NCBI GenBank assembly: GCA_025201365.1
Contig: JAIXMF010000006.1
Location: 124,001 to 188,000 of the forward strand
From: Syncephalis plumigaleata
Taxonomy: Eukaryota > Zoopagomycota > Zoopagomycetes > Zoopagales > Piptocephalidaceae
Reading direction: 5' to 3'
Length of the DNA: 64,000 nucleotides
Below are positions 7,782 through 51,080 of this stretch, in pieces. Positions within the stretch are counted from its first letter, which is position 1. Every line of letters starts with the position of its first letter. Below the pieces are notes generated by a model. That model had not been told where the DNA came from. It was given only the letters and a program-made list of their open reading frames with translations, and did not search any database. Position numbers and translations under genes: made by a program.

Positions 7782-10700
7782 TTATTCGTTTGATTCTTTC
7801 GTATCGTTCTGCGATAGCAAGAATGGCGGTGTGAACAAATCATCATCTAGCATGTCGTCTAGTGATGATGAATCCTCCGGCTGTTCACGTAAACTTGCTA
7901 GTTGAGCAGTAGGCATTAGTTCGGAACGATAGTAGCTATTTGTATGATAAATGGATCTTGCACTTACTTTGGTAATTGGCGCTAATACCGGCAAGTGCGC
8001 TACTGATATTTAATGACCATTTGTTGCTTTGATGTCGAGTATGAATTAGATGGTGCTTGGTTTGCTGGTATGTTTGCATTGGTTACATGTGGTCGATGTG
8101 GAGTTGCGCAGATAGCGTTATGAGGTGAGAAGATAATAGTGAAATCATCACCTTGAGGTAGTTCCAATGTTTGACCAGATGTTACTTGTTCTTGTATTTG
8201 ATTTAAATAGAGCGAGATGTCCTCCTCTATTTCTTCGTCGAATTTATCGTTTAAATGGCCGCTTAAACCAAGATAATTTAATGAAGGATCCGGGCGAGGT
8301 TGTTGTGATGTTGTCCATGACTCGAGTATTTCTTCTTTTTGTTGTTGTCCATTAGGAGACAAAAGAGCTAGTGGAGATTGGTGTCCATCTGCTGAGTCGT
8401 GTTGTACCTTGGATGGTGGTGGATGACAGTTGGTTATCTCCTTATTGTTTGCTTGTTCTTCCTCATATAATGATGGAGCCGATGGTGCTGGTTGTGTCGC
8501 CGCTGATTCCGCCGCATCAGCATTGTTGCAGCGGATTGGGAGACTAGCTGCTTCTTCTCGCTTTTCTTCGCCGACGTTAGAAGGATTCGATGGAGTTGGT
8601 TTCGCCTCACCGGTCTTATGACGGTAGACTGGGAGCTTGCCATAGTATTTAGAAACTTCCGTTGTCCATTTAAGGGCTTCTGTGGCGTTCTAGTGAGAAC
8701 AGCGTGTAATTGGGTTAATATCAAAGACCCGTAATCGTAGGTTCCAGTAAATATACCTTTACGCTACGATTCTATACTTGCAATATCAAATAAACGAGAG
8801 GATTTACGAAAGATATAAACGCTTTTTATTGAGAGAGGGGATAAAAGATAGCTTTTTTGTTCGATAATGATAGATAGGTTCTAGTTGGACCTATTTATAC
8901 TTGGAGGGGCTGTTAATCATGACATGATTCTACCGAAAACGGTAGACATCATCACATCACCTCCTCCAGTGTATGATTATACGTACGAATTGTCATACAC
9001 TACTCCTGGGTGGTACTTCTGGGTATGTATTTTTGCATCCTGTCCGCGTGTGTGTGGAGTATCTCCTTAGTACCTACTTTTTCAAGGGTATAATTGACTG
9101 CTCTGGTTTGCTTTTTCACTTCGTATGGTCCAAGCATTTTGTTGCGTAGTCGTTCTAACTTCGATCCTTTTTGGTTCGTGTTCTCGACCATGACCAAGTC
9201 ACCTTCTTCGTACGTAGCACCTTTTCGCTTTTTATTGTACCTCGCAGACTGTCGTTGTTGAGCTGCTGTAATCATGACAAGAGCGCGTTCTCTCACGTCT
9301 TCTAGTCTACGTTGTAACTCTTCGACGTAGTTACTGTAATCTTCGCGCTTCTTTGCATGTCGAATCTGCGTAGGCTCAACTCCTTTTACTGCTGCGTCTA
9401 GTGGTTGTCGCGCTTCTCGGCCATATAATAGTTGGAATGGAGTGTGACCAGTAGAAGCTTGCGGCGTGGAACGATAAGCGAACATTAATAGTGGTAGGTA
9501 CGTATCCCAGTCGGTGCCTTGTTCATTAACGAACTTGGCTAACATGCTAGCTAGCGTCTTGTTAAAACGCTCGACCAATCCGTCGGTTTGCGGGCGTCTA
9601 ACGGTAGCAAGTCGCTGTTGAATACCGAGTGCTTTGACGACATGTACTGTTAGATCGGAAGTGAAATTTGTACCGCGGTCGGTAAGTAAAGCTTGAGGAA
9701 CACCGTGACGAGCGATAACGTAGTCTAATAGGAACTGTACGGTCGTAGTAGCAGATGGGTCCGGTATGGCGGCAGCTTCGATCCATCGTGTCGTGTAGTC
9801 GGCGCACACAGCTATATATCTATTACCTTTAGTAGTACACTCGAATGGTCCTACCAAATCGATAGCGATTAGATCGAAAGGTCGCTCAGGGGTTGGAATA
9901 GACTGTAGCAAGCCTGTGCGTTTTGCGGGCGCGCGTTGACGACTGCATAACGGGCAAGACATTACATAATCGTAAGTATCTTGATATAACGATGGCCACC
10001 AATAACCTTGTTGTATACGCTTGAATGTACGATAGACACCGAAATGGCCAGCTGTAGGGACGTCGTGATTGTGATATAATACAGCTTGGCGGTAGACAGC
10101 GGGTACTACTTCTACAAGTCGTTGACCTTTTTTAATGCGTAGTAACTTGCCATCTTGTATACGGTATGATTCAGCGCGGCGTCGAATCTTGCGTAGCATT
10201 TCGGAACCAACCTCCTCGAAGAACGGCTTGTTGTCGGATAGGAAGGCGTAAACACCTTCGAACTCAACGTCGTCACGCTGAGCATCGCGCCATTCGTCGG
10301 GTGTAGGTAATGTCGGAATCGAGTTGGCCAAACTCTCTTCGTTCACGGATGGATCTTCGTCTACGGCGGCGGCGATTGCTGGAGATTCGATAAGTGGTAT
10401 CGGGTAGTCGCGCTGTTCGTTGCTGTCTACTTCTTCATCTGGTGTGTCGGGATTCGTCGTACATTCGCTAACGAAGTGGCTCCAGGGCAACGGATCACGA
10501 GAAAGAGCATCCGCGTTGGCATTAGATGTGCCTTTACGGTATTCGATGGTGGGCTGACATTCCTGTAACTTGAGGGTCCATCGTCCTAACCTTCCAGTTA
10601 AAACGGGACGACTCATTAACCATCGTAAAGCAGAATGATCTGTGACGACGGTGAACGGACAACCATAAATGTAAGGACGGAACTTTTCCAAAGCCCAGAT

Positions 10701-13700
10701 TATAGCTAAACATTCACATTCAGTGGCTGAATAGTTACTTTCCGCTTTAGAAAGAGCTCGACTAGCATAAGCTACTGGTCGCCATTCATCGTTGTGTTGC
10801 TGAGCAAGCACGGCACCCAATCCTACAGAGGACGCGTCGGTTTCAACACGGAATGGACGGTCAAACTTCGGAAATGCGAGGACAGCATCGCTGGAAAGGG
10901 TCTGTCGTAACCGCTCGAAAGAAGATTGTTGCTCGAGTGTCCACTCAAATGGTACTCCTTTCTTGGTTAGTCGACGTAATGGTTCAGCGATGGTGGCGAA
11001 GTTGGGGATGAAACGACGATAATAGGATGCTAGGCCGAGGAAGCTCTTGATACCACGAATATCGACAGGTTGAGGGAACTTGCGTACGGCGTCAACTTTA
11101 CTTGTATCAGGTAAGAGACCACGAGCTCCGACGATGTGTCCTAAGTATGCAATTTCTTGTTGCGCGAAATGACATTTAGAACGTTTCAAGCGTAATCCAG
11201 CGTTGATCAGTCGTAGGAACACTTCTTCAAGGCGGATTAGCATATCGTCGAAAGTGCGGCCGAAAACAATGATGTCGTCAAGATATACCAAACAGGTACG
11301 CCACTTCAAGCCTGCGAGAACCTCATCCATCATGCGCTGAAATGTTGCTGGTGCATTACATAGACCGAAGGGCATAACGCGGAATTGATAAAGACCATCG
11401 CTCGTGATGAACGCCGTCTTCTCCTTGTCAGCATCAGACATTGGGATCTGCCAATAACCAGCGGCCAGATCTAGCGTGCTAAACCAGGTAGCGCCAGCTA
11501 AAGCATCCAACGCGTCGTCGATTCGAGGAAGAGGATAAACGTCCTTCTTCGTGATAGCGTTCAGACGTCGATAATCGACACAGAATCGATCACCTCCGTC
11601 CTTCTTACCAACGAGTACGATCGGTGATGCCCAGGGACTATGAGATGGTTCGATGATATTGTTCTTCAACATTTCTTGCACTTCTTGAGAGATCTTGTCG
11701 CGCTGCTTGAAAGATGAACGATAAGGCGGAGAGTTGATAGGTAAACAGTCGCCGGTGTCAATACGATGTTTCGTCTTGGTGACGATGCCGGGACGTTTAG
11801 GATTAATAGCAAAAACACGATGATACTGATGTAATAAATGATTCATTTTCTCTTCACAACGGGCTTTCTCTACTGCAGTAGTAGGGAAGTGGGATTCAAC
11901 GACTCTGTCATCAACATGATTAATGGACGTGTCATGAACTATCGCGTTCACAGGTATAGACGACCAAGGGTCATCAGCAGCGATAAACTGTACGCGCATA
12001 GCTAGTACACCAGACATATCTGTCATAACCGATGTTTCCACATGTTGATCTGCTATACTAATGATACCATCATAACAATTCACATTGGCACGAATCGAAG
12101 GATGACTCAGCCAGTCCATACCTAACAAAACAGGGTAAGGAGCTGCAACGCGGTAGCCCACGTTTACATTAATCCCAATTCGCGTTCCCATTTAACTATC
12201 TGTACTACACAAAATCTTAATAAAAAGAGAGCTCCTCGCCACATTATGTGGGAGGGACACCTACGTTTTCACTTCAAAAACCCTAGCGGCAGTTATCTTT
12301 ATTCAGTGTGTGCTTATACTTGTTTCAGGAGCCATGTCTAAGATGATAGCATTAATAGTAGCGCTAACTCCTGCCACATTAATAGGAATTAAAATGCGAC
12401 CACGAGTTTGAACGGACTTGCCGTCAGCTAACCTTACTTGGGACGCAGTGTGTGGGGGTAACTTTCGACCGATTTGTCGACAGAGATCTTGAGTCACCAC
12501 TGTACATTGCGCGCCAGTATCTACTAACATATCTGATGCGGTTCCACCGATGGTACCGGTTACGAGCATAATACCTTGGCTGGAGGTTTTGCTTGTAGCG
12601 AAGGTTACCGAGGACTTATCAGCATTTTGGGCGTGCGCGGCCTCAATGGCACACACCCGTTCTAGTTTTCCGTCTGCTGCACGCCAGTATTGACGTCAGC
12701 CTCGACATTCCGTTCTGCAGGTGCATTGCGTTTTTGTCGAATCGCTTCCTGGATAGCGTCAGCGTAAGGGCAATCATTCTTGAAATGATCCGTACCCTCA
12801 CAAAGGAAGCAGCTACGAGTGACTGGACGAGGACGGTTGGTGTTAGGTCTACGATGAGCATTCTGTTGTGGGCGAGGAGCGGCGTGAGCTACAACCGGAT
12901 CAGGATTGGGTATATCGAGGGCGGCGACAGTATGTGACTTGCGTTGCTTGGTTAATACATCGAGATCATCCACAAAGTCCATCATCTGTTCCCAATTAGT
13001 GATGCGGTGTAACGTCAAGTGCGAGCGTAAATCTTCCGGAAGGCCACATCGGAATTGCGTCCATTGTTCTTCCGGTCCTTGATTGGCGTTGAGGGCAGCT
13101 TCGGTGATACGATTGGCGTAGCTTCGTAACGTTTCCGGCGATCGGTAACGTGTCTGGCGGAATTGCAACATCGCCTTATCGATGGGGTCGCCACCGAGTA
13201 CATGTCGTTTTAAGCTATTTAGCACGTCACCGTACGTCATCGGACGTTGATCCAGCGCCAAACTCGTGGTGCGGGCCCATTGAGGGTATGAGCGACTCAT
13301 GGCAATCATGAGCTGGTGAATACTCTCGTCGTTGAGCAGCTCGTATTTGGCGACGATAAGTTCAAAACGAGTAAGCCACGTGTAGAAGTCCTCCTTCTTC
13401 CTATCGTACTCTTCAATCTTGATGGGAGGGAGTACTGGCGGGAAGTTGACTTGATGCGTGGGCGCAGCATTCCGAAATAGGTGAGCTAAATCGTGGCGTC
13501 GTTGGTGTGCGTTGAGAAACTCTTGCACTTGATTCTGCTCGTTAACTTGTAGTTCATCTAATCGGGTTGCTACACCGTTCACGAGTTCACAAACTCGGCG
13601 AGCATTTGGCGTGTACTCGCCGAAAGGGTTTGCAAGGTCCTCGTGTGCTGGAACAGGGGTACCTTCGACACGGTTGGGCGCGGCATCTCGACGAGGGGCA

Positions 13701-16460
13701 GGTCCTGCGTCTGGCTGGTTGTCTTGGCCAGGTTGCTGCAATGTAGCCATGATATGTGCGCTGTGTGGATCGTTGGCTAGAGCTCGCAACTCGCGGGACA
13801 TGCAGTTGTGTACCAGAAGCTGTGGTAAGGTCGTTAAGGGACGTAAAGGAAATATATAAAAGAAATAAGGTAAGATAATATATGACTCGTGATATTATAG
13901 GCGTAAAAACGAAGAGAGCGAGAGCGAGGGGAGAGACGAGGTGTATATTTGTTATTGTAAGTATAGTTGGCAGTATCTTTACGATTGATACCGCCCGGGT
14001 TCTCCACCAATTGTGGCGTTCTAGTGAGAACAGCGTGTAATTGGGTTAATATCAAAGACCCGTAATCGTAGGTTCCAGTAAATATACCTTTACGCTACGA
14101 TTCTATACTTGCAATATCAAATAAACGAGAGGATTTACGAAAGATATAAACGCTTTTTATTGAGAGAGGGGATAAAAGATAGCTTTTTTGTTCGATAATG
14201 ATAGATAGGTTCTAGTTGGACCTATTTATACTTGGAGGGGCTGTTAATCATGACATGATTCTACCGAAAACGGTAGACATCATCACAGCTTCTATATCCT
14301 TCTTGCTACATTTAGGTTTTACACGATCCTTCGTGCTACAAATAGGTTCTACAGGATCTTTCTTATGGTGTAATCCCTGCTTGAGTCTCTCTTGCATCTT
14401 CTCGTAGTCACTCTTGGTGTCAATGTGACCTGGAGGAATATAGGGATTCGAACGTTTCTTCTTGCTAGGAGGCAAGGCCTTCAATTCTAATATGGATTGT
14501 TAGTGTATATTAAATAAACGTATGATTGTTACTCACCTTCTTCTTCTTCCTCCTCTATTAAGGGTGATGGCATTAGTCTTTTCGTTGAACGTAATGCAGC
14601 AGCGCGTACTTCTTCAAACAATCTCTCTACGCCATTATGATGCAAAAGCTCCATGTTGGCCACCATAATCTCTGCATTTGGTGCTACTTTTGCTTTACGT
14701 TTAGTAAGCGGTTTGGCTGCCGCTTTAGCTTCTTTATCGGCTGCATCTTCAGTGTGTATATAATGCAATGGATCACGCTTAAGCGATGCCGATTGCAATG
14801 ACGAATAATCTTTTTTCGATCGTGTTGGAGCATCACGACTTGGCGTCTTCAGTGCTTCATCCAAAGTACTCTGCTGCCAAATTGTGTTAGTCTAAAGTTG
14901 GCTGTTAATCATTTAAACATTACTTACCTTATATTTATAAGCCTTGAGCTTTATGAGTTTCTCAGGCGCATCTGGACACATCTTAAGCGATGTCGATCGC
15001 GATGACAAATCATATTCTTTCGATCGTGTTGGAGCATCATGACTTGGTGTCTTCGGCGCTTCATCCAAAGTACCCTGCTGCCAAATTGTGTTAGTCTAAA
15101 GCCGACTATTGGCCATCTAATCATTACTTACCTCATATTTATAAACTTTGGACTTTATGAGTTCCTTAGGCGCAACTGGACGCAGCTTAAGCGGCTTTCG
15201 CCAGCTGTCGACTGCTGCTTCATTCTTTTTTATTCGACCAGCTTTTGTGCCCAAAACATTCCATGACGCTTGAGTTTCACCATCGACAGCAGCAGCAGTT
15301 GTTGTTGTAGCAATAGAACCAGATGGTGGTATATTCTCTTGATCCACATAGGCTTGGAGTCGACGTTTGCCGTTTTCGTTCTTAGCATTAGCTGGTTCAT
15401 GATGAACTGCTGAAGCTGGTCGTTGATTAAGTGAAGTAGTCTGCTTGCTTAGCACGCCTTTACTAATATGGCGAACGGCTGGCTGTTGTTCCACCAATGG
15501 TGTCTTCGTTATGGCGTTCTTCTCGAACATGTGTGACACGCCCTTGACTGATTTGGATTCGGATGGTGTAACTTTAGCTGAAAGCATACGTAATTGGAAA
15601 TGGAAGAACTCTTCCTCAATTCGTGTGAGCTGTTGAGCAAATCGATTAATCCCTAGTTTGTAGCAGAGCTCGGCCTCACGCCACCTATAAATAGAGCGTG
15701 GTTAGCATGCGTTAGTATAACTAGAATGTATCGACAGTTTTACTAGCGCCTACATCTTTTTCTTCTCTAAATATTCGGCATATTCCTGGTAGGCCGGTAC
15801 TTGCTTCTGTCCGATGTTGTTTGTCTCTAGAAACTTGTACACAGCAAGAGGATCACTGACAAGCTCGGCGTGCAATAGCGAGATACGTACGTAGCGTGGA
15901 TCATTCGTATAACGACTACAATTACGGAACTTGCGTGTGCATCGTTCAAGCAATACAGGCAGCATGCCTGCGTAGCTATCGCTTTCGAGACAACTATGCA
16001 GTGTCCACTCCACGTATCGTTGGTAGACCTCCAAGGGATCATCGAGTTTGTCGGCATTGCTGATCTCTTTTTCAAATCTAGCACGCTGCTTTTTAAGCGC
16101 AGCTGCACGTTTCTTCTTCGGTGTGAAAAACAGGTCGATTAGGGCTGCGGCAACTCGATTACTCTTCAGCGGTGCGGTATTCTCTTTATGTCTTTCAATA
16201 GTCTCCTGATCAACTACACGTGGTACAGGTCCACGTTCGCAATTGTCCAGCGTAGTCGGTGCAGGTATACGGGTCTTGGTTGAAGTAATGCGAAATCGCT
16301 TTGGTTCGGGGCCGTAGACTTCCTCTTCTCCTCGTACAGGGTCGTCGCCAGGCTTGTACTCGGGAGCAATGGATATCGCTTGAGAGTTGACATATTTGGG
16401 TAGGTTAGAATTGCGCGCGGGAGTGCCATTGGCACCGTAAGAAATATGTAAGTCTGTCAT
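7782..16460 (-). CDS. Mad3/BubR1-like spindle checkpoint protein, split by a retrotransposon
   Basis: The chosen start is the ATG at 16460 (MTDLHISYGANGTP). Near residue 85 is RHKENTAPLKSNR, the KEN box of Mad3/BubR1 (KENxxPL), which blocks Cdc20-APC/C. The Mad3/BUB1 TPR region follows (EVYQRYVEWTLHSCL, ISLLHAELVSDPLAVYKFLE, WREAELCYKLGI). A second destruction-type motif, DQENIPP, lies in exon 2. No kinase domain is visible, so it is Mad3-type rather than Bub1-type. Exons are 16460-15754, 15684-15132, 15074-14928, 14870-14537 and 14486 onward. The last is interrupted at 14288/8680 by the Ty3/gypsy element. The host frame runs straight across the insertion point (KKDIEA then LKWTTEVSKYYG). It continues to about 8005, where one base seems missing, then through a last intron to the stop at 7782. 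With the element in place the product would be truncated. Confidence 0.8.
8681..8956 (-). repeat. 3' LTR of the Ty3/gypsy element
   Basis: This is a 276-base direct repeat of 14012-14287 with no difference that I can see. On the plus strand it starts TGTGGCGTTC and ends CATCATCACA. It is the 3' LTR in element orientation, followed on the host side by the GCTTC duplication at 8676-8680. Confidence 0.97.
8957..8968 (-). other. Polypurine tract of the Ty3/gypsy element
   Basis: On the minus strand the bases directly before the 3' LTR read TGGAGGAGGTGA, a purine run in the place where plus-strand priming occurs in LTR retrotransposons. Confidence 0.7.
9000..12191 (-). CDS. Ty3/gypsy pol block: RT, RNase H, integrase
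   Basis: A 1,063-residue open block of the element. It begins in the C-terminal part of the protease (LLGMDWL). RT follows, with FSTLDLAAGYWQIP and the catalytic YLDDIIVFG, then RNase H (FRVETDASSVGLGAVLAQQ, TDHSALRWLM). The integrase has its HHCC zinc domain (HNHDVPTAGHFG, CPLCSRQRAP) and DDE core (IAIDLVGPF, LLTDRGTNF, VERFNKTL). A GPY/F-type tail (MLGPYEVKKQ) ends it, with no chromodomain. The order protease-RT-RNase H-integrase is that of Ty3/gypsy (Metaviridae). Confidence 0.97.
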   Translation of the reverse strand: MGTRIGINVNVGYRVAAPYPVLLGMDWLSHPSIRANVNCYDGIISIADQHVETSVMTDMSGVLAMRVQFIAADDPWSSIPVNAIVHDTSINHVDDRVVESHFPTTAVEKARCEEKMNHLLHQYHRVFAINPKRPGIVTKTKHRIDTGDCLPINSPPYRSSFKQRDKISQEVQEMLKNNIIEPSHSPWASPIVLVGKKDGGDRFCVDYRRLNAITKKDVYPLPRIDDALDALAGATWFSTLDLAAGYWQIPMSDADKEKTAFITSDGLYQFRVMPFGLCNAPATFQRMMDEVLAGLKWRTCLVYLDDIIVFGRTFDDMLIRLEEVFLRLINAGLRLKRSKCHFAQQEIAYLGHIVGARGLLPDTSKVDAVRKFPQPVDIRGIKSFLGLASYYRRFIPNFATIAEPLRRLTKKGVPFEWTLEQQSSFERLRQTLSSDAVLAFPKFDRPFRVETDASSVGLGAVLAQQHNDEWRPVAYASRALSKAESNYSATECECLAIIWALEKFRPYIYGCPFTVVTDHSALRWLMSRPVLTGRLGRWTLKLQECQPTIEYRKGTSNANADALSRDPLPWSHFVSECTTNPDTPDEEVDSNEQRDYPIPLIESPAIAAAVDEDPSVNEESLANSIPTLPTPDEWRDAQRDDVEFEGVYAFLSDNKPFFEEVGSEMLRKIRRRAESYRIQDGKLLRIKKGQRLVEVVPAVYRQAVLYHNHDVPTAGHFGVYRTFKRIQQGYWWPSLYQDTYDYVMSCPLCSRQRAPAKRTGLLQSIPTPERPFDLIAIDLVGPFECTTKGNRYIAVCADYTTRWIEAAAIPDPSATTTVQFLLDYVIARHGVPQALLTDRGTNFTSDLTVHVVKALGIQQRLATVRRPQTDGLVERFNKTLASMLAKFVNEQGTDWDTYLPLLMFAYRSTPQASTGHTPFQLLYGREARQPLDAAVKGVEPTQIRHAKKREDYSNYVEELQRRLEDVRERALVMITAAQQRQSARYNKKRKGATYEEGDLVMVENTNQKGSKLERLRNKMLGPYEVKKQTRAVNYTLEKVGTKEILHTHADRMQKYIPRSTTQE
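12303..12656 (-). CDS. Ty3/gypsy aspartic protease block
   Basis: This is a retropepsin-like segment with the active-site motif DTGAQCTVV. It lies between the gag and pol blocks of the element and is part of the same fossil unit. Confidence 0.85.
   Translation of the reverse strand: MCAIEAAHAQNADKSSVTFATSKTSSQGIMLVTGTIGGTASDMLVDTGAQCTVVTQDLCRQIGRKLPPHTASQVRLADGKSVQTRGRILIPINVAGVSATINAIILDMAPETSISTH
12662..13801 (-). CDS. Ty3/gypsy gag block
   Basis: A 379-residue block with a retrotransposon gag domain in the middle (YDRKKEDFYTWLTRFE, RQTRYRSPETLRSYANRI) and one CCHC zinc knuckle near the end (CFLCEGTDHFKNDC). It is the first coding block after the 5' LTR and leader. Confidence 0.93.
   Translation of the reverse strand: MSRELRALANDPHSAHIMATLQQPGQDNQPDAGPAPRRDAAPNRVEGTPVPAHEDLANPFGEYTPNARRVCELVNGVATRLDELQVNEQNQVQEFLNAHQRRHDLAHLFRNAAPTHQVNFPPVLPPIKIEEYDRKKEDFYTWLTRFELIVAKYELLNDESIHQLMIAMSRSYPQWARTTSLALDQRPMTYGDVLNSLKRHVLGGDPIDKAMLQFRQTRYRSPETLRSYANRITEAALNANQGPEEQWTQFRCGLPEDLRSHLTLHRITNWEQMMDFVDDLDVLTKQRKSHTVAALDIPNPDPVVAHAAPRPQQNAHRRPNTNRPRPVTRSCFLCEGTDHFKNDCPYADAIQEAIRQKRNAPAERNVEADVNTGVQQTEN
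13994..14009 (-). other. Primer-binding site of the Ty3/gypsy element
   Basis: Two bases inside the 5' LTR the minus strand reads TGGTGGAGAACCCGGG. This complements a tRNA 3' end of the form CCCGGGTTCTCCACCA. The tRNA species is not identified. Confidence 0.7.
14012..14287 (-). repeat. 5' LTR of the Ty3/gypsy element
   Basis: This is a 276-base LTR identical to 8681-8956 by eye. It abuts the host duplication GCTTC at 14288-14292. It is the 5' LTR in element orientation, so the promoter would drive toward lower coordinates. Confidence 0.97.
14780..15190 (-). repeat. Tandem duplication of an exon-intron unit inside the Mad3-like gene
   Basis: Two copies lie 204 bases apart; compare CGATCGTGTTGGAGCATCA at 14817 and 15021, and the intron end at 14881 and 15085. 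The duplicated unit takes in an exon end, a whole intron (CTAAC branch, ...TTTGGCAGCAG acceptor) and an exon start. The proteins repeat as STLDEALKTPSRDAPTRSKK and GTLDEAPKTPSHDAPTRSKE, with tails APEKLIKLKAYKYK and APKELIKSKVYKYE. Splice sites are kept in both copies, so the protein gained a repeat without losing frame. Confidence 0.85.
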
Positions 16461-47606: not shown

Positions 47607-47781
47607 CTATAAATCAAGCACTTTTTGACACACTCAACTTGCCATCTTCATACTCGCTCTTCTACTCTACTCTACTCTAACTGCTTTCTATTGCTTTCTA
47701 CTCTCGTTCTATTCTACTCTCACCACTTTCTACTCTCATTCTAGTTAGCTGAGCTATCCATTCCACTAGGCCAACAACAAC
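47607..47781 (+). promoter_or_regulatory. TATA box and CT-rich leader of the micro-exon gene
   Basis: GGCTATAAATCAAG near 47607-47620 is a good TATA box. It is followed by a pyrimidine-rich leader with repeated TCTACTC (about 47650-47745) up to the ATG at 47782. This arrangement is usual for strongly transcribed fungal genes and supports a real transcription unit. Confidence 0.65.
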
Positions 47782-50700
47782 ATGAAGCTCTCTGCCGTTC
47801 TCGCTATTGCTGTCGCCGTCGTCGCTGTCTCCAGTCTGGTCGCCGTTGAAGCCAAGCCCGCATTGGCCCGTCGTGGTATGTCACAGAAACAACAAGAACA
47901 ATGATAGTAATGGACACTAGCTGACTCGTTAATGATTGCTCGATAGCTGGCAAGTCTACCATTTGACCACAATGTCCCGTGTATTAACCATGCTGTATTA
48001 CTATTTGTACATTTATTCCGTGAATAGTTGGTATGTTGTCCGTGTAATAATGATTCGATTCAATGTGCTAACCGTAATATAATCATGCTCAATCCTCATG
48101 TGTGTCTATTCCGATAGTCGAACGTAGGTTTGCCGATAAATAAATAAACCACTTGACATGCTACTAATCATACTGCCATATCGACACGGTACATGGATCA
48201 ATAGACTGTAAGTAGTAGTCATGCCATGCTGACCATACCATTCAATGAGCTAACCATCCATATGGAATTATTCCACAAATAGATGGTACGTATGACTACT
48301 ATGGCAGTATCAGTTGATGTACTAACCATAGTCTATTGCTTTATTGCTTACCGACGATTACCGATAGTTAGTAAGTTCATGTATATTCATAGTTGTTTTG
48401 ACTCGCTAATCACATCATAATGTTTATTCCGCCTATTAATTTGTTAATAATAGCTGGTAAACCATTCTATTAAGTACATCATGTACTATGCTAATTGTAG
48501 TGTAAATCAAACCATATGTGATTACCATTTCAAGAGGACGTAAGTTACCATACTGATCGTAATGAATGAGGTACTAACTACATTATGACACACAACTTAT
48601 GTATGTTTCTGTATGCTAGGCTGTAAGTTACCATCCTGATTGCAATAAATGAGGTACTGACTACGATATGGCACACGATCTACGTATGTTTCTGTATGCT
48701 AGGCTGTAAGTTACCATCCTGATTACAATGAATAAAGTACTGATTATGTTATGACACACAATTTGCGTGCGTTTTTGTATGCTAGGCTGTAAGTTATCAT
48801 TTTGATTGCAATGCATGGGGTACTAACTACGATATGGCACACGATCTACGCATGTTCCTGTATGATAGAAAGTACGTAACCATTCTGATTGCAATGAATG
48901 AAGTACTGATTATGTTATGACACACAATTTACGTGTGTTTTTATATGCTAGGCTGTAAGTTACCATCCTAATTGCAATGCATGGGGTACTAACTACGATA
49001 TGGCACACGATCTACGCATGTTCCTGTATGATAGGAGGTAAGTTGCCATTCCGACAGCAATGAATGAGGTACTAACTACGATATGACAATAACCTACGTA
49101 TGTTTTTGTACAATAGGGCGTAAGTTATCATTTGGATTGCAATGAATGAGGTACTGACTACGATATGGCACACGACTTACGTATGTTCCTGTATGATAGA
49201 GAGTAAGTTACCATCCTGATTACAATGCATGGGGTACTGACTACGATATGGCACACGATCTACGCATGTTTCTGTATGCTAGGCTGTAAGTTACCATCCT
49301 GATTACAATGCATGGGGTACTAACTACGATATGGCACACGATCTACGCATGTTCCTGTATGATAGAAAGTACGTAACCATTCCGACAGCAATGAATGAGG
49401 TACTAACTACGATATGACAATAACCTACGTATGTTTTTGTACAATAGGGCGTAAGTTATCATTTTGATTGCAATGAATGAGGTACTGACTACGATATGAC
49501 ACACGATCTACGCATGTTCCTGTATGATAGGAGGTAAGTTACCATCCTGATTGCAATGAATGGGGTACTGACTACGATATGGCACACGATCTACGCATGT
49601 TCCTGTATGATAGGAGGTAAGTTACCATCCTGATTGCAATAAATGAGGTACTAACTACGATATGACAAATAACCTGCGTATGTTTTTGTACAATAGGGCG
49701 TAAGTTATCATTTGAATTGCAATGAATGAAGTACTGACTACGATATGACAATAACCTGCGTATGTTCCTATATGCTAGGTTGTAAGTTATCATCCTGATT
49801 ACAATGCATGTGGTACTAACTACGATATGACAAATAACCTGCGTATGTTCCTGTATGATAGAAAGTAAGTTATCATCCTGATTGCAATAAATGAGGTACT
49901 GACTACGATATGGCACACGATCTACGCATGTTTCTGTATGCTAGCCTGTAAGTAACCATTCTGATTGCAATAAATGAGGTATTGACTACGATATGGCACA
50001 CGATCTACGCATGTTTCTGTATGCTAGCCTGTAAGTAACCATTCTGATTGCAATAAATGAGGTATTGACTACGATATGGCACACGATCTACGCATGTTCC
50101 TGTATGATAGGAGGTAAGTTGCCATTCTGACAGCAATGAATGAGGTACTGACTACGATATGACAAATAACCTGCGCATGTTTTTGTATAATAGAGCGTAA
50201 GTTATCATCCTGATCGTAATGAATGAGGTACTAACTACGACATGGCACACGATCTACGTATGCTCCTGTATGATAGGAGGTAAATTACCATACTGATCGT
50301 AATGAATGAAGTACTAACTACGATATGGCACACGACTTACGTATGTTCCTGTATGATAGAGAGTAAGTAACCATCCTGATCGTAATGAATGAGGTACTAA
50401 CTACGATATGATAAATAACCTGGGTATGTTTTTGTATAATAGAGCGTAAGTTACCGTCCTGACTACAATGAATGAAGTACTAACTACGATATGGCACACG
50501 ATCTACGTATGCTCCTGTATGATAGAACGTAAGTTATTATCCTGATTGCAATAAATGAAGTACTAGCTACGATATGACAATAACCTGCGTATGTTCCTGT
50601 ATGATAGAACGTAAGTTATCATCCTGATTGCAATAAATGAGGTACTGACTACGATATGGCACACGATCTACGCATGTTCCTGTATGCTAGGCTGTAAGTT

Positions 50701-50852
50701 ACCATCCTGATTGCAATGCATGGGGTACTGATTATGTTATGACACACAATTTGCGTGTGTTTTTGTATATCAGTCTGTAAGTCATTACTCCAGTCGTCCT
50801 CTACGATATACTAATCACAATACAATCCACGCTAATCGAATGATAGGATTAA
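47782..50852 (+). CDS. Micro-exon gene for a ~69-residue secreted peptide
   Basis: Exon 1 (47782-47875) encodes a signal peptide: MKLSAVLAIAVAVVAVSSLV then AVEAKPALARR, with likely cleavage after VEA. Intron-like units then leave micro-exons starting at 47947, 48028, 48118 (6 bases), 48205, 48283, 48368, 48454 and 48535 (5 bases, AGGAC). Next come 27 single codons at 48620, 48703, 48786, 48869, 48952, 49035, 49117, 49200, 49283, 49366, 49448, 49531, 49614, 49697, 49779, 49862, 49945, 50028, 50111, 50194, 50277, 50360, 50443, 50526, 50608, 50691 and 50774. The exon at 50847 reads GAT TAA. The first group reads AVVEHYVTED in phase 1; the 5-base exon shifts to phase 0, where the codons spell AAAKAEGRAKGEEG then VKPPESERSNNASD before the stop. 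No internal stop occurs. A non-coding exon follows from 50908, with AATAAA near 51056. Nearly all introns have GTAAGT-type donors and TAG acceptors; the array introns also have TACTAAC-like branch sites. The function is unknown; a secreted variable peptide is an inference. A splice-like satellite without protein is the alternative. Confidence 0.7.
48540..50776 (+). repeat. 27-unit ~83-base tandem array: each unit one intron plus one codon
   Basis: The period is 83 bases (82 in a few units). A unit starts GTAAGTTACCATCCTGATTG, has GGTACTAACTACGATATG in the middle, and ends TGTATGATAG or TATGCTAG. Three bases follow, then the next GTAAGT. Unit variants pair an intron end with a codon: GCTAG with GCT, CCT or GTT; GATAG with GAG, AAA, AGA or AAC; CAATAG with GGC; AATAG with AGC; the last ends TATATCAG before TCT. 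Length changes occur inside introns but never in the three-base spacer. Confidence 0.95.
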
Positions 50853-51080
50853 GCAGTAAGTAATAATCCACAATGATCATACCCATACTAATCCACTATG
50901 ATTACAGAACAAGACAAGGACATCATCAAGTAGATATTATAGGTATTCAAGTCAAGAATGTATTGGTGCAAGACCCTTTAGTGTCCATGCCATTCAAGTC
51001 ATTATTCCTTGGTACCACAAGCAGTATATCTACAAGATCATTCAATCATTTACTGAATAAATATGTCCTATTCTGATCAT

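Follow-up and report, generated by a model that had tools for sequence, protein, structure and literature searches.

Does a locus in which a signal-peptide exon is followed by dozens of intron-like units, with a single codon left between most of them, represent a gene that is spliced codon by codon, or a repeat whose spacing imitates one? The locus raising this question lies at 47782-50855 on the forward strand of the window, i.e., the whole 64,000-nucleotide stretch that was analysed, from Syncephalis plumigaleata (Zoopagomycota, Zoopagales, Piptocephalidaceae in the taxonomy dump). Syncephalis species are parasites of other fungi. Our results indicate that this locus and its relatives very probably code for secreted peptides, many of them rich in cysteine, and are spliced in the normal way, so that nearly every codon downstream of the signal peptide forms an exon of its own. 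The original prediction, according to which single codons act here as exons, is supported by stop avoidance, by exon lengths in multiples of three and by conserved splice sites, and further by leader junctions found joined in intronless paralogues, by a deposited gene model and by invariant cysteine codons. Beyond that prediction, the window gene appears to belong to a large family of secreted peptides in Syncephalis, many members of which seem to be cysteine-rich, with codons evolving unlike the adjoining introns.

A splice parse blind to the reading frame returned the same exons as had been proposed, namely a signal-peptide exon and 36 micro-exons at 47782-50852, and their sizes matched exactly (33 of 3 nt and one each of 6, 5 and 9 nt). 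A putative, promoter-like TATAAA box, read directly from the sequence, is located at 47608-47613 (+, as are all features below). Exon 1 (47782-47875, 94 nt) encodes the signal peptide MKLSAVLAIAVAVVAVSSLVAVEAKPALARR plus one base, which leaves phase 1, and ends with CGT CGT G, placing a dibasic RR at its end. It is followed by the leader (47876-48534), which consists of eight introns of 71-87 nt and seven micro-exons, in order CTG, TTG, TCGAAC (48118-48123), ACT, ATG, TTA and CTG. The 5-nt exon AGGAC (48535-48539) then shifts the frame out of phase 1 into phase 0. The call of AGGAC depends on the parser: the looser parse took GAC, breaking the frame, and the rule that the first AG be used gives AGGAC; relatives often have a 5-nt exon in this position (36 in 42 genes). 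The array itself (48540-50773), delimited by the parse and Tandem Repeats Finder, contains 27 introns of 79-80 nt with one-codon exons between them. Tandem Repeats Finder recognises an 83-bp repeat with 27.1 copies (48540-50782), each unit being an 80-nt intron plus one codon, and array introns of the same length are on average 84.7% identical (237 pairs from 26 introns). The parse places the final one-codon exon, TCT, at 50774-50776 and the 9-nt stop exon, GATTAAGCA, at 50847-50855 (stop codon at 50850-50852), a TAAGC[AGC] exon common to the family. The joined frame encodes 69 residues and stops at GAT TAA, in line with the peptide of about 69 residues that had been predicted. Downstream, the parse gives a 52-nt 3'UTR intron (50856-50907), whose homologue is missing from the intronless loci that match the spliced copy L011 (described below), and the start of a 3'UTR exon (50908-51000) that carries the family motif beginning GGTATTCAAGTCAAGAATG (parse and motif search).

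The family is scattered over many contigs. The window stretch has at least 88 matching pieces genome-wide (40 of 159 candidates scored), leader-like matches were obtained at at least 150 places with a protein query including the leader (150 of 161 candidates scored), and the 3'UTR motif occurs at 141 places with up to two mismatches (reversed control, 0). Forty regions were taken; together with the window they contain 44 exon-1 sites, 42 of which were counted as copies after L012 (contig end) and L036 (array not parsed, 6.2 bits per intron) had been dropped, and L001-L008 were excluded as duplicate places in the 42-copy set or the window. The parser used position weights for the 5' splice site, branch point and 3' splice site trained on family loci. 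An open frame from the ATG to the TAAGC[AGC] exon was found in 30 of the 42 copies with the first-AG rule, in 21 without it and in 32 by either parse. Thus, the choice of AG matters. In several copies the looser parse preferred AAGAG to an earlier AG, which broke their frames; the first-AG rule mended these cases but put a single acceptor in the wrong place in each of L025, L039 and L040. For the family numbers the looser parse was used for L010, L025, L039 and L040, which gives 31 of 42 copies intact, with reading frames interrupted by 7-82 introns (median 33), 864 one-codon exons, proteins of 42-118 residues (median 66) and a median coding share of about 8% of the start-to-stop span. The 118-residue copy, L042, has an Arg/Pro-rich C-terminal part encoded partly by 6-nt exons (ACACGT, AGACGT, CCACGT and others), a second cassette size.

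The same parser found 1127 three-nt exons in the 42 genes, whereas dinucleotide shuffles gave 6, reverse complements 4 and a further 57 kb from elsewhere in the window 2. The splice signals, described as strong throughout by the original prediction, score 20.1 bits per intron in the 42 family genes vs. 4.5-6.7 bits for spurious introns in other window sequence. Moreover, the strict pattern GTAAGT..TACTAAY..TAG-NNN-GTAAGT has 730 matches genome-wide and none in the reversed control, and the equivalent with a 4-nt exon has none genome-wide. Ten of the 42 copies fail the blind parse: three contain a frame-breaking 2-nt exon (L016, L023 and L044:3342), two look decayed (L033 and L048), one has a replaced 3' end (L027, C135:60200-66200) and four need a non-standard or alternative splice site (L035, L037, L045 and L046). 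In L027 the array parses to CAA; what follows is unrelated sequence containing a gag stretch that resembles a zinc knuckle, so that a retroelement may have taken the place of the 3' end.

The introns carry the features of U2-type spliceosomal introns, i.e., GT..AG ends, a branch point and an AG-poor stretch before the 3' splice site. Of 1391 parsed introns, 1058 begin with GTAAGT and 96 with GTAAGC, the commonest branch point is TACTAAT (587), and AG density, in the parse without the first-AG rule, is.009 per nt downstream of the branch point vs..026 upstream. The length is 76-84 nt in 1100 of 1313 introns, the longest having 101 nt. Such a length suits the S. plumigaleata genome, since the coding blocks of the glutamate dehydrogenase gene in the window are separated by gaps of 103, 83 and 68 nt; the reading frame of this gene shows 100% identity to a deposited Syncephalis protein. 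We infer that in the cell these would be ordinary spliceosomal introns of about 80 nt, recognised by GTAAGT, a TACTAAY-like branch point and the paucity of AGs before the final one; given their ordinary appearance, intron definition could remove each of them singly and leave 3-nt exons behind. The frame follows a common plan, with a phase 1 leader, one exon, usually of 5 nt, leading to phase 0, mostly symmetric codons and an xxxTAAGCR exon, after which comes a 3'UTR intron. If the genes are spliced as read, a fungal spliceosome handles dozens of consecutive 3-nt exons, and intron definition and the order of splicing become testable.

Could the micro-exons be spliced mostly alternatively, varying subsets of symmetric exons being skipped so that each gene gives many in-frame peptides? 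Among exons of up to 15 nt, 1252 of 1300 are multiples of three, as compared with 24 of 67 in shuffles and 37 of 118 in reverse complements; 1127 of the 1300 have 3 nt, and 36 of the 48 that are not multiples of three are the 5-nt phase-changing exons. Hence, most subsets would stay in frame. Thirteen deposited family proteins were read, and one of them, P0130, from the contig of L031, was compared with its locus: exon 1, joined to 41 of the 47 micro-exons predicted there and read in sequence, accounts for the first 77 of its 92 residues. P0130 lacks five exons that are multiples of three (CTCAAGAAC, TGC, GGA, ACACCT and CCT) and the 2-nt exon CC, yet is in frame until CC; its tail, judged by eye, runs into the 3'UTR intron. 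However, P0130 is a deposited gene model and could be the output of a prediction or alignment program that drops tiny exons, and the conservation of Cys codons between paralogues argues that the full product is under selection. On balance we consider predominantly alternative splicing unlikely, and full splicing of the micro-exons remains the preferred reading.

It is far less probable that intron sequence has multiplied here as a minisatellite, with exon 1 spliced straight to the stop/UTR exon and the triplets serving as meaningless spacers. The window array is truly a tandem repeat, and duplication alone would copy the 3-nt spacing; several of the deposited models other than P0130 also ignore the array and end in intron 1 or continue from exon 1 into UTR sequence. 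Against this stands, besides the 41 micro-exons present in P0130, the behaviour of the triplets. Among the 1127 three-nt exons there is one stop, where 28.5 would be expected from their own composition and 75.9 from that of the locus, and third codon positions are C or T in 71%. Cysteine is kept in all 32 matched one-codon exons, as against 310 of 379 for the other residues (15 pairs, P =.005). In 270 pairs of same-length introns differing by up to 3%, the codon is unchanged in 196, but it differs at.156 per site vs..012-.032 for intronic control triplets, and two- or three-base changes occur in 46 pairs vs. none of 270 in each control; these pairs share ancestry, so the figures are counts and not probabilities, nor are they independent, because array units are related by duplication and pairs have genes in common.

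The leader junctions of intronless copies argue against a minisatellite as well. A 28-mer that spans six predicted junctions and is composed of the end of exon 1 and six micro-exons of sister copies (CTG, TTG, TCGAAC, GCC, GTG and CTC) is contiguous at 13 places in the genome with up to three mismatches, four of them exact (reversed control, 0); the window gene has the first three of these micro-exons in common, followed by ACT, ATG and TTA instead. The deposited protein P0126 contains the same peptide, RRAVVERRAP, within a single open genomic frame. Furthermore, the spliced form of L011 has 239 nt, and all of these, or nt 1-237, align with uninterrupted genomic sequence at no fewer than four places (40 of 329 candidates scored), namely C1:1600206-1600454 (83%), C374:19533-19785 (79%), C223:1619768 (78%) and C112:333626 (74%), with the 3'UTR junction included; C318:1250965, C318:1235607 and C340:889845 are partial matches among those listed. 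These loci are either retrocopies or intronless relatives, and in both cases they display the predicted junctions. The cysteine-rich array of L021:6290 has no intronless counterpart among the 150 scored matches, none of which covers the whole peptide. They represent the leader and mostly stop no more than about 10 residues past exon 1; the one that extends furthest reaches residue 54 of 66. A similar leader, RRAVVQRRAP, followed by a different peptide, is present in P0129, from a JGI contig of 1442 bases (a weak match, E 0.014), which suggests that the family exists outside the S. plumigaleata assembly.

It is hardly credible that the family consists mainly of decayed pseudogenes or of a selfish repeat spreading with its introns, since, despite the broken appearance of L016, L023, L033, L044:3342 and L048 and the dispersal of the family across many contigs, 32 of 42 copies are open by the blind parse, and splice sites and cysteines are conserved between paralogues.

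The divergence of codons and introns was compared in 14 paralogue pairs, which were hand-chosen, some with a gene in common. Divergence is.011 at the 5' splice site,.025 at the 3' splice site,.044 at the branch point and.082 in the rest of the intron, the conservation of splice sites being partly built in by the parser. Pooled codons show pS of.160, higher than pN of.110, and both exceed the intron rate. Six pairs have a pN above the intron rate (P <.03 in five, P =.041 in the other), in L027/L034 it is below (P =.0026), and the remaining seven show no difference at the.05 level. With pS likewise above that rate, replacement of whole codons accounts for the pattern better than simple positive selection does. 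In cassette alignments of ten pairs, insertions and deletions comprise whole units; L020 and L024, for example, differ by a clean loss of 12 cassettes, and their matched introns are 98% identical. Within pairs, cassettes with two- or three-base codon changes have more diverged upstream introns (+.061; 0 of 2000 permutations), as expected from cassette replacement. Around changed codons, differences are concentrated in the nearest 10-20 nt or so, a tentative hint of short conversion tracts from only 17 and 13 pairs. Four successive cassettes, 32-35 of L039 and 7-10 of L046 (numbered from 0), have flanking introns diverged by only 1.3-3.7%, and all four codons differ.

The family probably evolves by gain, loss and replacement of cassettes, each an intron plus a codon, whereby one residue is changed per step and the frame left intact. 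More tentatively, and with somewhat less than even confidence, we speculate that the codon is here the exon, and that cassettes with near-identical introns but different codons are swapped between paralogous arrays; such residue-by-residue editing by recombination, possibly together with in-frame skipping at the RNA level, would provide the parasite with a combinatorial library of secreted peptides. Were cassettes swapped in this way, it would amount to exon shuffling at the resolution of a single amino acid. Symmetric one-codon cassettes allow peptides to be varied per residue with the frame undamaged, which suggests a possible reason why a parasite retains them.

Genes for Kex2-processed cysteine-rich secreted peptides of fungi encode a signal peptide, a dibasic site and a short cysteine-rich mature part, and the Syncephalis family resembles them in all three; such genes are not known to have one-codon exons. 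The layout of a secreted precursor is present, as a hydrophobic signal peptide (judged by eye) is followed by a dibasic site, and RR closes exon 1 in all 31 intact copies. The precursor would enter the secretory path and probably be cut at RR by a Kex2-like protease, releasing a short mature peptide, often with a C..CC..C frame, which is found in the mature part of 12 of the 31 intact copies, close paralogues included. A Pfam search with eight spliced peptides gave no hit above the curated cut-offs, sub-threshold examples being Conotoxin (17.0 bits vs. 25.1) and CBM_14 (15.7 vs. 22.1). A spliced cysteine-rich peptide compared with the deposited proteins gave six matches, which cover only 34% of the query, the length of the signal peptide. 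Given secretion, the cysteines, the family size and diversification in a mycoparasite, the product probably acts on the host fungus as an effector or antifungal peptide.

The nearest ideas are the micro-exon genes of schistosomes and the bicycle genes of aphids, and the Syncephalis family would represent the extreme of the micro-exon-gene idea, in which exon size and intron density come to a limit (a single short frame can contain as many as 82 introns). Schistosome micro-exon genes, in the available parts of their description, have 10-20 exons of 6-81 bp (3-81 in the abstract), mostly of 15 bp, and introns of 0.1-5 kb (PMC10526429). As here, a signal peptide is followed by many tiny, mostly symmetric exons, and the products are secreted, variable parasite proteins whose genes are hard for automatic annotation (PMC10526429). 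A further mark of the schistosome genes is that alternative splicing gives variant proteins. In contrast, the Syncephalis exon typically has 3 nt, the introns about 80 nt and the frame up to 82 of them, neither the majority of ~15-bp exons nor the 0.1-5 kb introns of that partial account being found; the two groups, of different kingdoms, are set apart by description. Bicycle genes, as far as the source excerpts go, are likewise a large family of putative effectors known by many small exons, with about 17 exons on average and almost all internal exons in phase 2, and a megacycle gene with over 100 microexons encodes about 2000 residues (PMC9168663). The Syncephalis genes, unlike bicycle genes in those excerpts, have single-codon exons in phase 1 and then phase 0, for proteins of 42-118 residues, and not the pattern of ~17 exons in phase 2. 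Excerpts on Arabidopsis APC11 (PMC4674806) and Fusarium CYP621A, the latter backed by an intronless relative and RNA reads (PMC12940212), describe 1-nt exons, which shows that exons of this size are within reach of the spliceosome, in a fungus too; as far as these excerpts go, each is a single tiny exon in an ordinary gene, whereas in Syncephalis dozens are consecutive. In the accessible part of a plant survey, a rice gene has two adjacent microexons of 5 and 12 nt (PMC8831610). Among the titles listed from the open-licence literature, none concerns runs of one-codon exons, which is no proof that they are unpublished.

Our findings also show that gene callers can overlook or garble a large family of secreted peptides. 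Elsewhere in the window, at 8000-13894 on the reverse strand, long open reading frames resemble, as recognised from their translation, a Ty3-type retroelement, with a reverse transcriptase and integrase-like frame of 1063 aa and a gag-like frame of 410 aa.
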